From assembly GCA_017517745.1 (NCBI GenBank), contig JAFWYJ010000037.1:1-62602 (forward strand): a stretch of 62,602 nucleotides of DNA. The letters run 5' to 3'. The notes beneath the pieces were generated by a model. The model had not been told where the DNA came from. It made no database searches and worked only from the letters and a program-made list of their open reading frames with translations. The DNA comes from Clostridia bacterium. GTDB lineage: Bacteria; Bacillota; Clostridia; Oscillospirales; CAG-272. Positions 8,317 through 41,903 of this stretch are shown here, one piece after another; the stretch's first letter is position 1; each line of letters begins with the position of its first letter. The position numbers were made by a program, and so were the translations under genes.

Positions 8317-8617
8317 TATAAAAAACAAAAAGCCCCTTTTACGCAACAGCAACATACTTTTGCATAAAAGAGACGAAGATTGATGCTCTCCGCGGTACCA
8401 CTCTGCTTGGTGACTCCACCCACTTTATGCCATATCTGACAATACGGCTTCTCGATAACGGGAGAACCCGTCCAATTCTACTCGGCTCACGCCTTTGGAT
8501 TGGAAGCTCGGGGATGAGTTATCGTCGATCTCATATATTGTCTCGCAGCCCCCGACAACTCTCTGAAATATCCGATCGACCTTGTTTCCCGTCACAGCCT
8601 ATAAATATAATAATTTG
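8317..8617 (-). promoter_or_regulatory. T-box leader, probably leucine-specific
   Basis: The 5' leader of leuA carries the T-box core GTGGTACCGCGG read on the minus strand (8389-8401). Its UGGU bulge (8400-8397) would pair with an ACCA tRNA end, that is discriminator A, as in tRNA-Leu. A candidate specifier codon CUC followed by A lies at 8518-8516, after the stem I sequence. A terminator follows. The leader senses uncharged tRNA-Leu and would switch on the whole operon. The specifier position is inferred by eye. Confidence 0.88.
8320..8374 (-). terminator. T-box attenuator terminator
   Basis: A 14-bp stem (arms 8361-8374 and 8332-8345, four of the pairs G-U) is followed on the minus strand by TTTTTGTTTTTT. 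It competes with the antiterminator formed by the T-box sequence just upstream. Confidence 0.9.
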
Positions 8618-37188: not shown

Positions 37189-38151
37189 TCATTCAAGGGT
37201 CATTTTGACGTCTCCCGTATTGGTGGTGATCCGGCATTTCCCACCGTTTCCGCTCTCGGGAACACGAACGCTTCCCGTGTTTGATTTGGCTATAAAAAGC
37301 TTCTCCGAGCGCAAGGTACCGCTCACGTCACCCGTGGTCGTTTTGACGGTAATCTCGGCGGCATCGCAAGACTCAAATTTGACGTCGCCCGTGCTTCTCT
37401 CAATCGAAAGGCTTCCCTCCGCCAGCACGTTTCGAAGAGACACATCCCCCGTGCTACCGGTTGAGGTGAGCGCTTGACACTTGAGATCGGACAGTTTCGT
37501 CCGTCCCGTAGAAACAGCAAGCTTGACCTCTCCCTCGCAAACGATGTTCGAAGCGGTGATCCTGCCTGTGGTGACCGAAAGAGAAAGCGATCCTGCGGAA
37601 AGATGTTCCGCCAAAACGTCACCCGTGTCGGTTGCGATCTTCAAATTGCCGCTTGCCGAGGCATAGCACTTCACGTCACCCGTGCTCTGTGAAATCGCAA
37701 TGCTTTCAAATTCGAAATCCTTGGAAATCTCCACGCGTCCCGTGCTCGACTTGATCTGCAAATCGCCATATTTGCCGGAAGGAACCGAAACGGTGACCGT
37801 CGGCGTCGAGAAAGAAATGCCGATATGCTCATACCACTTCCTCGAGTCAACGCTCTTGATGACCAACACGCCGTCCTCTACCTCAACCGAATGTTTTTGA
37901 TTTTTCTGCTCGTAACAAACCACCGAGCAGGCTTCGTTTTCGGAAGGAACAAGCACGATATGAGCGGTTTCTCCCGCGATCGAAATTCCTCGGAAGTCTT
38001 CCTTGATCTCATGCACGTTCGTTTCAAATTGATTCGTTGATAATTTCGTAAAATCCCATTTGAGCACTGTCATCACGCCGCCCAAAATCACGATGCCAAG
38101 CAAGAGCGCAATTCCTGCCGCAAGCATCCATATTTTCATCCCCTTATTCAT
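37189..38151 (-). CDS. DUF4097 beta-strand-repeat membrane protein
   Basis: 320 residues with one N-terminal membrane anchor (about 7-28) and an extracytoplasmic domain built of about ten repeats of an (S/T)TG(D/R/S)(V/I/T) core (STGRV, STGDV, DTGDV, TTGRI, STGRT, STGDV, STGDV, TTGDV, NTGSV, NTGDV), spaced roughly 17-22 residues, typical of the DUF4097 beta-solenoid. The start at 38151 overlaps the DUF1700 stop by one base (TGATG); the longer reading frame is a shadow. Probable envelope-stress sensor. Confidence 0.88.
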   Translation of the reverse strand: MNKGMKIWMLAAGIALLLGIVILGGVMTVLKWDFTKLSTNQFETNVHEIKEDFRGISIAGETAHIVLVPSENEACSVVCYEQKNQKHSVEVEDGVLVIKSVDSRKWYEHIGISFSTPTVTVSVPSGKYGDLQIKSSTGRVEISKDFEFESIAISQSTGDVKCYASASGNLKIATDTGDVLAEHLSAGSLSLSVTTGRITASNIVCEGEVKLAVSTGRTKLSDLKCQALTSTGSTGDVSLRNVLAEGSLSIERSTGDVKFESCDAAEITVKTTTGDVSGTLRSEKLFIAKSNTGSVRVPESGNGGKCRITTNTGDVKMTLE

Positions 38152-38753
38152 CACACGCCCTCCCTTTTCGCAAAGCATTTTTTGATTCCGACAATGACAC
38201 CTCGCGCAAGGATCAAAGTTCCCTTCGTCGCCGCCTTGCATCCAAAATAGAGAAAGACGGAGAGACCCGCGCAAATCAATGCCGCACCGATCATCGCCGC
38301 ACCAACGTAACCGCTTCCTTGACAGAAGAAAACAACGCTTGCCCCCACGCCGCTGACCGCGACGCCAATCAAGGAACCGAAAACAGACCACGCCGCAATC
38401 ACCAAAGACCACAGCACGGCGTAAAGCGAAAGCAATACGGAAAACGCCGCAACACCAAGCGAAAGCCAGATCGGCGCGCCGAGACACAGCAACACGATCT
38501 CCCACGTCGAAAGCCGTTTTGGGACCTTGATTTTTTCTGTTGTCACGATTTTGCCAAGCGATTTCTCGGCAAGGATCTGCGCCGCGATCTCCTCCACAGA
38601 TCCGATCTGTGCAACCGCCTCTTCTTCGTCGCAGCCTTCCTCCATGCGATCCTCGATCATTTCAGCGTAGAATCGCATCCGTTCTTCGACGTCATACCGA
38701 GGCAGATCCGCGATCCTCCGCTCAAGCGCGTCAAGAAATTCTTGCTTATTCAT
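38151..38753 (-). CDS. DUF1700 (HAAS domain) membrane protein
   Basis: 200 residues. The N-terminal helical HAAS domain (about 1-75; FLDALERRIADLP...EERMRFYAEMIEDRMEEG) is followed by about three to four hydrophobic segments. HAAS proteins pair with PadR regulators and DUF4097 proteins in Firmicutes. The ATG at 38753 follows AAGGAGG by 9 bases and overlaps the padR stop by 8 bases; an ATG 9 bases earlier abuts the site. Confidence 0.88.
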   Translation of the reverse strand: MNKQEFLDALERRIADLPRYDVEERMRFYAEMIEDRMEEGCDEEEAVAQIGSVEEIAAQILAEKSLGKIVTTEKIKVPKRLSTWEIVLLCLGAPIWLSLGVAAFSVLLSLYAVLWSLVIAAWSVFGSLIGVAVSGVGASVVFFCQGSGYVGAAMIGAALICAGLSVFLYFGCKAATKGTLILARGVIVGIKKCFAKREGV

Positions 38754-39066
38754 GCTCCTCATCCTCCTTGATTACAAATTGATAGATCGCCATCACCTCG
38801 CGCCACTCGTCCTTGAAATCCTCGATGCGACCGAGTCCCGCTTTTGTGATCCGATAATATTTCCTGAGCCTGCCGCCGTGCTCCGCCGTACGTACCGTCA
38901 ACATATCGGCAAGCTCAAGACGCTTCAAAATGGTATAGAGAGTCGACTCCGACATGTCGATGCAGGGCTTCAGATCCTTGATGATCTTGTAGCCGTAGGA
39001 CTCCCCGTTTTTGATCGCGGCAAGGACACAAACGTCGAGCAGCCCTCGTTTGAGTTGAATATCCAT
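38746..39066 (-). CDS. PadR-family transcriptional regulator
   Basis: 106-residue winged-helix repressor (QLKRGLLDVCVLAAIKNG, YGYKI, STLYTILKRLE, RKYYRITKAG). First gene of the padR-DUF1700-DUF4097 operon; it is expected to repress its own promoter and release on envelope stress or an antimicrobial ligand. Confidence 0.93.
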   Translation of the reverse strand: MDIQLKRGLLDVCVLAAIKNGESYGYKIIKDLKPCIDMSESTLYTILKRLELADMLTVRTAEHGGRLRKYYRITKAGLGRIEDFKDEWREVMAIYQFVIKEDEEHE

Positions 39067-39479: not shown

Positions 39480-39533
39480 CCGAAAACCCTTGTAAAATCA
39501 AGGCTTTCGGGGGGGTGTGTATTATTCCCACTC
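39480..39533. repeat. Left direct repeat (attachment-site-like) of the guaA insert
   Basis: 54 bases of the same length as 41850-41903, identical over the first 13 (CCGAAAACCCTTG) and the last 14 (TATTATTCCCACTC), roughly 70 percent overall. The last 14 reproduce the 3' end of guaA including its stop codon. Confidence 0.75.
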
Positions 39534-39751
39534 GCTTAAATTAGCATTATATTGAGTGAATTTAGGTCTTTCGAGGGTGTTTTACAGGGGATTTGACCGC
39601 TATTTTCCGCTTCGTCTATGGTGTCTATGAAAAAACGGTATCAGAATGGTATCAATGATACCGACTGAAAATCACATTATTCCCAACAATTCATTATACC
39701 ATAAAAGCGGAATAATTACAAGAGGTTTCAGCAATATTATCAAACGTACAT

Positions 39752-41053
39752 TTAACAATCTGATATACTTATTACACAGAAATAATATCCGTCTATTTCA
39801 TAATAATATAGCGTATCCTTCGGAATATTACGCTCCTTTTCTGTTAAAATAAATTCTACTTTTTTTGGTGTAAAATATATCTCATATTCATACAGCGTAT
39901 CTACTTGAATATCTTTTACGTCCAAAATGTTTTTGTATTCTCCATTTAATATGTACGGAGTATGTAAATCAAGGCTTCCGTTTGATTCAACCAAAAACAG
40001 GGAATCAACTCTCATAGTATAGGTTTCATCAGCATAATCAGTATAAATATTGAAATATCCTAAAATCTGATACTCTTCATAATCATCTTTAATCGAGCTT
40101 TCAATTTGAGCAATATAGTCAGGATCCTTGTTCTCTTGCTTGGGAGCGTCTAATTTTCCCATAATTGTTGCGAAAATTGCAAAAAAACAGCATACGCAGA
40201 AGATTATAATGATTATACGGAGCAGAATGCGGCTTGCTTTGTTGGCTTTCAGGGGATATTTTTCTGTGATTTCCAATTTGCTCGGTGCTACTTCTTCAAG
40301 CGTTCCGAAAATGATTTCCAGTTGTTTTTGAGATAAAGAAGAAAAGACAAGCTTGGGGGCTTTGCTTTTGATTGCTTCGAAAAGCGAAGCTGCCTCATCC
40401 AGATCGCCCTTCATTCGTTTTGTAACGGCTAATTGATATTGGCGCATCAAGACAAAATAATCACAGTTTTTCTTTTTTGAGTATTTATCAATACCTTTTT
40501 CCGCGATAGCGCAGGCAGAGGTATAGTCGGCATTGGAAAATGCACAGTAAAACTCATATGCCGCCTTATTCGGTTTTGAAAGTTTTAACGTCGGATTGTA
40601 TTTGTGATAGTTATCAATTTGAGCGAGATTATCTTTGATTCCTTCATAATCTCCTCGCTCAAAACAAACACGGCAGAGAAGCAAATGTCCGTAAACTCTT
40701 TGATTGACGTTCTTGTGTTGCAACAACACAGAATTTATAATATTGTGCGCGTTTTGGTAGTTACCCGTTGCGAAATCTAAATTCAGCTTGTAGGAATAAT
40801 TAGCCAGAAAAGGCTTGGCGTTTATGATTGCAGCATATTTTTCAGCATCAAGCTCTTTCCATAGTGAAGGCATAATCGTTATTCTGACGGCGAATGATAC
40901 AGCTATTCTCGTATATACAAAAAAGCATAAAAAATAGATCATAACGCCAATAGGCTCGTCAATACACCAAATCGGTATAAGCAACGGAAGCGTTAGAAGA
41001 AGGGATAAAATATAGTATGAGGCAATCGCTTTTTTTGCAGCTGTGTTTTTCAT
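39752..41053 (-). CDS. Unknown three-segment membrane protein, partner of the type III toxin
   Basis: 433 residues, no family recognised. Two N-terminal membrane segments (about 12-30 and 34-56), a cytoplasmic helical region that looks TPR-like (about 84-255; repeated A/Y/G-D/N-Y patterns such as FATGNYQNAHNII and FERGDYEGIKDNL), a third segment (about 276-298) and an extracytoplasmic domain of about 135 residues. The ATG at 41053 follows GGGGG. It starts 11 bases after the toxin stop, so both genes share a transcript. AT-rich codons. Confidence 0.7.
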   Translation of the reverse strand: MKNTAAKKAIASYYILSLLLTLPLLIPIWCIDEPIGVMIYFLCFFVYTRIAVSFAVRITIMPSLWKELDAEKYAAIINAKPFLANYSYKLNLDFATGNYQNAHNIINSVLLQHKNVNQRVYGHLLLCRVCFERGDYEGIKDNLAQIDNYHKYNPTLKLSKPNKAAYEFYCAFSNADYTSACAIAEKGIDKYSKKKNCDYFVLMRQYQLAVTKRMKGDLDEAASLFEAIKSKAPKLVFSSLSQKQLEIIFGTLEEVAPSKLEITEKYPLKANKASRILLRIIIIIFCVCCFFAIFATIMGKLDAPKQENKDPDYIAQIESSIKDDYEEYQILGYFNIYTDYADETYTMRVDSLFLVESNGSLDLHTPYILNGEYKNILDVKDIQVDTLYEYEIYFTPKKVEFILTEKERNIPKDTLYYYEIDGYYFCVISISDC

Positions 41054-41064
41054 ATTGACCCCCT

Positions 41065-41550
41065 TTATCTGTAATTTTTGCACGCCTTCTCGAGCAGAAG
41101 AAAATCGTTGCAGCGCTTGGCGAGGGATGAAGCATCGCCCTCCTTGATTTTAATCTTATAAACGTTCTGCGCGTTCTTCCAAATCTTCTCCTGAATGGAC
41201 TTGATATAACGGTACTCGGCGAGAAGCAAAGCGCGGTAGTGCGGATCACGCTCGCTTCTAATGTCAACGTACTTGGCTTCGCTCAGCGGCACGGGGAACA
41301 TATTGTTCAGATTGATAACGGCATAGTCCTTGATCTTAATAAAATCAAGTCCTTCCTTCATAAGCTTGTGCTTGTCCTTAAACGAGGAAAGCGGCGCGAA
41401 GTAATCAAAACCGTTGATTTGCAAAACGATACCTATATACTTTCTCTCATTCTTCTGCCCGGATTTCTTGTTTTGAAACAGATGCGGAGCATACGCCGAG
41501 AGATATGTAATATAACTTACGTTAATTTCGTAAAGCTTAAGATTGTCCAT
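41065..41550 (-). CDS. Type III toxin-antitoxin toxin, ToxN/AbiQ family endoribonuclease
   Basis: 161 residues with the ToxN/AbiQ pattern: LKLYEINVSYITYL start, RKYIGIVLQINGFDYFAPL (37-54), the active-site stretch APLSSFKDKH (52-61), and INLNNMFPVP (79-88). Family members are RNases that cut mRNA and their own antitoxin repeats and often block phage growth. The ATG at 41550 follows GGAGG by 5 bases and lies after the antitoxin terminator. The longer reading frame runs through the antitoxin repeats and is not real. Confidence 0.9.
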   Translation of the reverse strand: MDNLKLYEINVSYITYLSAYAPHLFQNKKSGQKNERKYIGIVLQINGFDYFAPLSSFKDKHKLMKEGLDFIKIKDYAVINLNNMFPVPLSEAKYVDIRSERDPHYRALLLAEYRYIKSIQEKIWKNAQNVYKIKIKEGDASSLAKRCNDFLLLEKACKNYR

Positions 41551-41570
41551 TGAGTCCTCCAAAATAGCAA

Positions 41571-41709
41571 ATGAGGGCAAGTGTGCCTTGCCCTCATCAC
41601 ATAACTTTCGCATTCTGAGTAGCGAAACACTCACTTGTAACTTTCTTGAAAGAACCAAGAGAAGTTCGCTTAGTAAGTTTCTCACTTAGGGCTGAGATAC
41701 ACCCGCATT
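41571..41709 (-). ncRNA. Type III antitoxin RNA with 36-nt repeats
   Basis: On the minus strand, between promoter and toxin, there are imperfect units exactly 36 bases apart, each ending GAAASTTA (plus-strand TAASTTTC at 41602, 41638 and 41674). A strong terminator follows: ATGAGGGCAAG / CTTGCCCTCAT (41571-41581/41587-41597), then TTGCTATTTT. Promoter, tandem repeats, leaky terminator, toxin is the ToxIN layout, and 36 bases is the ToxI unit length. Confidence 0.88.
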
Positions 41710-41712
41710 TAT

Positions 41713-41741
41713 ATTATATCCTTTTTCTGCTGTTTTGTCAA
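41713..41741 (-). promoter_or_regulatory. Promoter of the type III toxin-antitoxin operon
   Basis: The minus strand reads TTGACA (41741-41736), 17 bases, TATAAT (41718-41713); the transcript start falls at the first antitoxin repeat. Confidence 0.88.
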
Positions 41742-41849
41742 TACAAAAAGGATAATTTCTATAAATCAACGGCAAGAAATTTTCACCTTCCTGCCGTTGT
41801 TTATTATTCTCTTTGGTATCAAAACGGTATCAAAAATCCGTTTTAAGTG

Positions 41850-41903
41850 CCGAAAACCCTTGATATATAAGGCTTTTTCGACTTGCGTTTATTATTCCCA
41901 CTC
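41850..41903. repeat. Right direct repeat (attachment-site-like), overlapping guaA 3' end
   Basis: 54-base partner of 39480-39533; its last 12 bases are the final codons and stop of guaA. The paired GGTATCA repeats lie 18-35 bases upstream. Confidence 0.75.

Follow-up and report, generated by a model that had tools for sequence, protein, structure and literature searches.

A predicted ToxIN-type module with three mutually diverged antitoxin units in a Clostridia bacterium

Type III toxin–antitoxin systems, in which an RNA antitoxin holds a toxin in check and which are known as phage-defence modules, are validated by tandem repeats upstream of the ToxN gene (PMC5086642 section 7; PMC8860590, extract). 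The locus described here lies in a window of 62,602 nucleotides (the whole stretch of DNA analysed) and raises the question of whether a module with hardly recognisable repeats still belongs to the ToxIN systems, and what its dissimilar units might mean. The module comprises the following features:

41713..41741, minus strand: sigma-70-type promoter, TTGACA-17 nt-TATAAT, adjoining antitoxin unit 1 with no leader
41674..41708, minus strand: antitoxin unit 1 (U1), H-type pseudoknot, first stem (S1) GGGT/GCCC, second stem (S2) TCTCA/TGAGA; nearest to ordinary ToxI
41638..41672, minus strand: antitoxin unit 2 (U2), H-type pseudoknot, S1 GAAC/GTTC, S2 TCTTG/CAAGA; richest in two-sided stem changes across the relatives
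41602..41636, minus strand: antitoxin unit 3 (U3), H-type pseudoknot, S1 GAGT/ACTC, S2 TCGC/GCGA; weak ToxI-model match
41570..41598, minus strand: intrinsic-terminator-like hairpin between antitoxin and toxin, from a consensus scan and a perfect 11-bp inverted repeat
41065..41550, minus strand: ToxN/AbiQ-family endoribonuclease toxin, 161 aa, GGAGG upstream; Pfam, PADLOC and PDB matches

On the minus strand these elements run from the promoter through the antitoxin array (41708-41602), the hairpin and the GGAGG site to the toxin, which is the canonical ToxIN order. The TTGACA-17-TATAAT promoter that the earlier note had claimed is present at 41741-41713 with a 12/12 match; promoter-like sites in the module region number four against 2.2 expected in shuffles, and relatives of the module carry similar promoters. 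The claimed GGAGG site likewise lies before the toxin ATG at 41550. The terminator scan call is by itself no evidence because one site was found against 1.1 expected, which is chance level, and the assignment depends on the 11-bp hairpin that the note had also reported, a perfect inverted repeat (41571-41581/41587-41597). The 161-aa ORF contains both motifs cited earlier for a ToxN/AbiQ-like toxin, APLSSFKDKH and INLNNMFPVP, and the profile search proposed as a check agrees with that reading: the ORF matches Pfam PF13958 (ToxN_toxin) with E=1.1e-46 and 159.3 bits (cut-off 25; profile positions 1-159 of 159) and the PADLOC AbiQ profile with 1.3e-37. With a ToxN profile match far over its cut-off and all elements in canonical order, the suggested full ToxIN architecture holds, and the window locus is, on sequence evidence, a true ToxIN-type module that is ordinary in its parts and their order.

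PDB chains matching the toxin were 4ATO (best, 2.7e-20), 7D8O (which we take to be E. coli ToxIN), 2XD0 and 4GLK, with values ranging to 2.3e-9, and the toxin is also homologous by sequence to 2XDD (ToxIN_Pa). It is the sole PF13958 match in the window's assembly (62 contigs, 97% complete); an NCBIfam search at E up to 0.01 returned no family, and its relatives in phage and plasmid collections (E up to 1e-5) are all below 60% identity. The active-site residues of ToxN_Pa are Tyr29, Lys33, Thr52, Ser53 and Lys55 (PMC5086642 section 6). Mapped through the gap-free start of the PDB-chain alignment, with conservation taken from 48 aligned rows, Ser53 and Lys55 correspond to the invariant S56 and K58 of the window toxin, and Thr52 to the nearly invariant S55. 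The active site differs from that of ToxN_Pa at Lys33, where the window has an invariant R36 (the 4ATO chain likewise has R), and at Tyr29, where it has a nearly invariant Q32. Membership in CptIN, and more tentatively in TenpIN, was rejected: only ToxN and AbiQ chains, and no CptN chain, appeared among the PDB matches (E up to 1), PF13958 was the sole Pfam match up to E=0.1, and the units measure 35-36 nt against 45 nt for CptI. Several genomes of the same class as the window (G579, G763, G600, G745 and G513) carry ToxN matches that are split or interrupted by stops and are apparently decayed copies.

The antitoxin is the unusual part. Its period is exactly 36, with unit ends at 41674, 41638 and 41602 and three full units, and ungapped identity is 11/35 between U1 and U2 (shuffled U1 against U2: mean 9.0 matches, 95th percentile 13), 22/35 between U1 and U3, and 13/35 between U2 and U3. 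Neither Tandem Repeats Finder (TRF) at a minimum score of 30 nor a direct-repeat search detected an array in this region. Because sequence-based repeat finding gave no array, a pseudoknot test was used, which revealed that the three units have in common a pseudoknot of two interleaved stems (4 and 4-5 bp) with unit-specific stem sequences; three such pseudoknots in register occurred in 0/100,000 dinucleotide shuffles of the array. The antitoxin therefore has the form expected of ToxIN, an array of about 34-39-nt units that are each an H-type pseudoknot of ToxI topology, and we class the module as a ToxIN variant because its units are not recognisable as nucleotide repeats, the property examined by TRF in PMC8860590 (extract). 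Rfam gave no gathering-level match over the antitoxin, and two sub-threshold matches (E-value 0.99 and 3.3) were taken as chance. The sole gathering-level Rfam match of the window is a T-box leader (8366-8604, minus strand; 105.6 bits).

Kinship with ordinary ToxI was assessed using 18 individual units taken from ToxN loci of lower relatedness, located on plasmids of Lactococcus, Fusobacterium, Lactobacillus and E. coli, in a Clostridioides phage and in genomes of the window's class (21 candidates were typed, of which L095 and L097 went unused and L126 could not be placed). The two-stem topology is borne out in this set: pairing reaches 91.4% across 140 cells where shuffles give 82.1%, and 16 cells show two-sided changes against 5.2 (0/500 shuffles as high in either case); the number of changed pairs was reached by 90/500 shuffles and the number of pair types by 36/500. 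The top match of R1, a covariance model of these 18 units, in the 62.6-kb window is unit 1 (32.7 bits, E=6.1e-5), and unit 3 ranks third (11.9 bits, E=1.6, or E=0.0062 in a search confined to the locus). A second ToxI model, R2 (other stem), gave 29.6 bits for unit 1 and 14.3 bits for unit 3, and neither model matched unit 2. In 32 relatives chosen from 82, the ToxI model gave 32 matches up to E=0.5, of which 28 fell on unit 1 or a unit-1-like element, two on unit 3 and two elsewhere; L059, L068, L074 and L087 gave no match up to this value. Because the ordinary-ToxI model finds unit 1 and the units share the ToxI pseudoknot topology, the antitoxin is, as judged by model match and predicted fold, ToxI, with unit 1 nearest the common form. 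The earlier description of imperfect 36-base repeats was thus exact in its period, but the sequence barely repeats. Its suggestion of a possibly new antitoxin type is right only in part: R1 matches unit 1, which makes the antitoxin ToxI, and what is new is the divergence of the units from one another with their order kept among the aligned relatives.

Is this divergence a peculiarity of one locus? Relatives numbered 82 loci (80 kept of 108 from genome contigs, and two from viral contigs). Three units were located in 56 of them, representing 50 distinct arrays, and 48 of these were aligned with the window in 49 rows (L017 and L063 were left out, the start of L071 was corrected, and the window row is 4 bases short at its end). 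Standard pairs form in 99.8% of 1274 stem cells, a percentage that is favoured because the aligned rows were chosen for having or resembling all three units; with the partner slid by 1-3 columns as a control, pairing was 36.5-53.2%. Two-sided changes, which are less affected by row choice although many rows are near relatives, were found at 7/26 pairs in 53 cells, against 14.7 cells in shuffles (0/500 as high). Further pair types were not in excess: 13 were counted where shuffles averaged 13.9, and 496/500 shuffles reached that count. S1 of unit 2 alone accounts for 37 two-sided change cells with none broken, and its second stem has one broken cell.

Identity is organised by position. Across 48 loci (window row out), units at the same position average 88% (U1), 82% (U2) and 79% (U3) identity between loci, against 55-62% for different positions inside one array, and for 110/144 units even the least similar same-position unit elsewhere is closer than the most similar unit of the same array. 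The U1-U2-U3 order is kept in the 49 aligned arrays, which were selected for all three units. Since position-wise identity exceeds identity within arrays, the three units probably diverged before the aligned lineages split and would thereafter have evolved as separate elements.

A wider comparison began from 125 loci, 123 of which have at least 200 nt upstream and were used (L062, whose start lies off the contig, and L096 were left out), with 400 nt upstream scanned. Ninety-three loci share at least 50% toxin identity with the window (the window and duplicate genome records included; 81 distinct upstream stretches), and the 30 outside loci, below 50%, are a mixed sample and no survey. TRF found an array in 0/93 clade loci against 23/30 outside at score 30, and in 0/93 against 20/30 at score 50. 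In a toxin tree of 104 rows (of the 125 loci, 10 were excluded because of their length and 11 duplicate another row), a branch of 76 rows with SH-aLRT 98 contains 70 divergent, five intermediate and no uniform arrays, and one row without data; outside it lie all 18 uniform arrays together with four divergent and six intermediate ones. Array classes were taken from 240 nt upstream, which clips a few arrays such as L051, and the exact clade border is unsure because the tree was built quickly and its outside branches are long. Clade members belong to Clostridia, Erysipelotrichaceae, a Selenomonas and Spirochaetota.

Unit number is largely constant as well. A strict geometric rule counts exactly three in-register knots at 66/93 clade loci and four at 6/93 (0.2% of shuffles have at least three); in those six the fourth knot begins past the array, inside the terminator hairpin, which gives three array units in 72/93. 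The remaining 21/93 score 0-2 knots, although L055, L056 and L073 are three-unit arrays with one knot missed. The same rule puts 29/30 outside loci at three or fewer, yet misses many of their knots. Also among these 21, four Spirochaetota loci of Treponema type (L087, L088, L090 and L091) have a seemingly single pseudoknot unit before ToxN, and one-unit ToxI may exist; in L075, L084, L085 and L086, one clear ToxI unit is followed by a seemingly unrelated hairpin and a longer gap to the toxin start. What appears from these sequences to be new is that repeats are replaced by diverged, order-keeping units across a toxin clade extending from Clostridia to spirochaetes. A literature search for divergent or non-identical ToxI units gave no description among the papers listed; the 2012 survey by Blower, reportedly the founding one, may include clade members.

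How might such an array work? In the window, the -10 box adjoins unit 1, and for this reason the 5' end of unit 1 is probably set by the transcription start. Among relatives, TA[AG]CA precedes unit 1 in 19/24 with the -10 box at least 12 nt upstream, against 1/40 with it adjoining (the counts omit nine loci whose promoter could not be placed and 21 in which unit 1 was not located, and are uncorrected for kinship). A looser leader motif gave 16/18 against 15/54, and UUA or UAA follows unit 3 in 64/72. These border motifs fit what processing at unit borders would be expected to leave. In published ToxIN systems, the toxin cleaves its antitoxin precursor into single units, with which it closes a three-plus-three ring, and the terminator keeps the antitoxin in excess (PMC5086642 sections 2-4; PMC8860590, extract). 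For the window module we infer a similar course of expression, cleavage, ring formation and defence. Transcription would begin at or just before unit 1; most transcripts would end at the hairpin and supply antitoxin, and read-through would provide toxin mRNA. Each unit would fold into its H-type pseudoknot, ToxN would cleave the precursor at the junctions of the units, and an inactive ring of three toxins and three RNAs would form, as known for ToxIN. If the supply of antitoxin stopped, for example upon phage infection, free ToxN would cut RNA and halt the cell. The module departs from the published mechanism solely in the non-identity of its units.

A reason for this departure may lie in the instability of ordinary repeats. 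The repeat number of ordinary ToxI changes readily, with PCR products of 2.5 to 5.5 copies and slippage suggested (PMC3475682, extract); in AbiQ, phage resistance falls when one antiQ unit is added or taken away (PMC5086642 section 3); and phage PhiTE escapes with expanded or captured ToxI repeats (PMC3475682, extract). With unit stems diverged and the fold kept, the identity needed for slippage or for recombination with phage copies would be lost, and unit number would be fixed at one ring's worth. Because identity between units is removed, divergence would hinder changes in number, the cost of gaining or losing a unit, and phage escape. This locking of unit number is the reason we prefer, as a rationale whose chances we regard as evenly balanced. 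Taken as a whole, the reading as a type III (ToxIN) toxin–antitoxin with a diverged three-unit antitoxin, which likely forms an ordinary ring and may have its unit number fixed by divergence, is one we hold with good confidence.

The constancy of order and number could also be taken to mean that the units are not interchangeable, each RNA having a defined place in an ordered hetero-ring made from one transcript. A kept U1-U2-U3 order in the selected arrays, an own stem sequence for every position, and the coincidence of three units in most clade loci with the ToxIN ring size of three (PMC5086642 section 6) would all suit such a specialised ring. However, the toxin is one protein, which in known structures touches the tails and pseudoknot ends (PMC5086642; PMC8860590, extract), the tails of the three window units look alike, and some relatives seemingly manage with one or two units. 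We regard this ring as possible though rather unlikely, and are equally tentative about the broader proposal that the repeat antitoxin has become, in one branch of ToxIN, a fixed trio of different RNAs from a single transcript that must be arranged in order round three toxins; if true, type III antitoxins would not have to be repeats. It is doubtful, too, that the module is plain ToxIN with imperfect repeats whose divergence is a by-product of toxin–antitoxin coevolution. Antitoxin repeats of type III systems do vary widely between groups (PMC5086642), and four tree rows outside the clade also scored divergent, but the TRF contrast between clade and outside loci and the difference of ToxI_Pa repeats at one base (PMC3475682, extract) speak against it.

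The ToxI match, by far best for unit 1, weak for unit 3 and absent for unit 2, might instead reflect decay, in which unit 1 alone, or units 1 and 3, would work and unit 2 would have drifted since one good unit is enough; in CptIN one repeat neutralises the toxin (PMC4627078, extract). The 82% mean identity of unit 2 between loci and the many two-sided changes in its S1 with no pair broken are the opposite of drift, which makes decay quite improbable. Least credible of all is that no toxin–antitoxin exists and that the structured leader instead regulates an RNase-like gene in cis: the leader does lie directly 5' of the gene and has a terminator-like hairpin, but it lacks a gathering-level Rfam match, and the ToxI model match, the ToxN profile and the ToxIN order concur.

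The module is located in a small island at the 3' end of guaA, with these features:

39520..41903, minus strand: integrase-less island of 2.37 kb at the guaA 3' end, between two GAGTGGGAATAATA copies, with the module and a 435-aa TPR-like ORF
39752..41059, minus strand: second cargo ORF, 435 aa, with weak, sub-cut-off matches to TPR; related islands carry other ORFs at this place

The guaA end GAGTGGGAATAATA occurs exactly twice in the window's assembly (41890-41903 and 39520-39533), as part of a 54-nt imperfect repeat, and the insertion at the guaA 3' end is flanked by direct repeats holding GAGTGGGA. No integrase is encoded by the island's two long minus-strand ORFs, which are ToxN and the TPR-like protein. 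The layout recurs in L004/L018, where 2,089 bp separate the cores, and in L015, where 2,358 bp do; L015 aligns with the window across the island, and L004 has other ORFs past the toxin. L142, from a same-genus genome, has an empty site with a downstream side matching L004 and L018, and a ToxN search of this 72% complete genome gave no match, which leaves absence unproven. The right end of the island (39525-39730) matches 46/395 family genomes, weaker matches covering 30-60 nt only; guaA and the right-end core are separated by 0.7-4.0 kb with other ORFs between in 7/18 fetched regions, and in eight aligned right ends strong conservation ends at the core. Nine cargo ORFs scanned from seven islands encode sigma factors, an isomerase, a glycosidase-like domain or nothing recognised, and no recombinase. 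Small guaA 3'-end islands (window 39520-41903, L004, L015, L018, L176, L182-L184, L186, L187, L193 and L194; L181 is left out as its left end is unplaceable) share the right end and often the left end, differ in cargo, and are cassette-like, with tandem copies in L186 and L178/L194. Downstream of the window island, genes for a PadR regulator, a HAAS-domain protein and a DUF4097 protein follow one another (37189-39066, minus strand).

When 14 downstream stretches were searched against ORFs from the integrase matches of the window's genome, one integrase was found, a tyrosine integrase with an arm-binding domain beside a right-end guaA-type core (L197:367-1512, minus strand), which is a candidate helper for the integrase-less islands; ORFs near it resemble, by eye, what is presumably an AbiE pair. 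The guaA gene is a known island site at GAGTGGGA (PMC9376610, extract; guaA also PMC4701971, extract). GIsul2 and the CR2-sul2 unit likewise insert there at the guaA 3' end, and a unit sharing the att sites of GIsul2 was moved by its integrase (PMC9376610, extract). Different from GIsul2, the window island is only 2.37 kb, lacks an integrase, and has other ends and cargo.

The clade shows that repeats can diverge past detection by a repeat finder while pseudoknots and usually unit number persist. Clade loci would fail tandem-repeat validation because the repeat finder detects nothing in them. The clade also makes it testable why ToxI consists of repeats and whether the ring needs identical RNAs, as well as whether non-identical units keep their number fixed or prevent phages from mimicking the antitoxin.

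Compared with known systems, the window module is most similar in solved toxin structure to ToxIN_Bt of Bacillus thuringiensis pAW63 (PDB 4ATO), the best match at 2.7e-20, which also has R at the Lys33 position, the same promoter-antitoxin-terminator-toxin order, and roughly three units of comparable size (34 nt x 2.9; PMC5086642 section 3); the toxin is a distant homologue, and the window units, compared among themselves, differ in their stems. Likeness to AbiQ/antiQ of Lactococcus lactis is found in the PADLOC AbiQ match, in a Lactococcus plasmid toxin that is 44% identical, and in the ToxI pattern shared by window unit 1 and the unit of that plasmid, whose units are nearly identical (TRF 3.1 copies, 96% matches), in contrast to the window array. 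ToxIN_Pa of Pectobacterium atrosepticum (2XDD) and E. coli ToxIN (7D8O) have homologous toxins with the Ser53 and Lys55 equivalents kept, and their units are H-type pseudoknots, 36 nt long in ToxIN_Pa. Their antitoxins differ, with 5.5 near-identical repeats in ToxIN_Pa (PMC5086642; PMC3475682, extract) and 4.6 repeats in the E. coli cluster-1 representative (PMC8860590, extract), whereas the window module has three dissimilar units.
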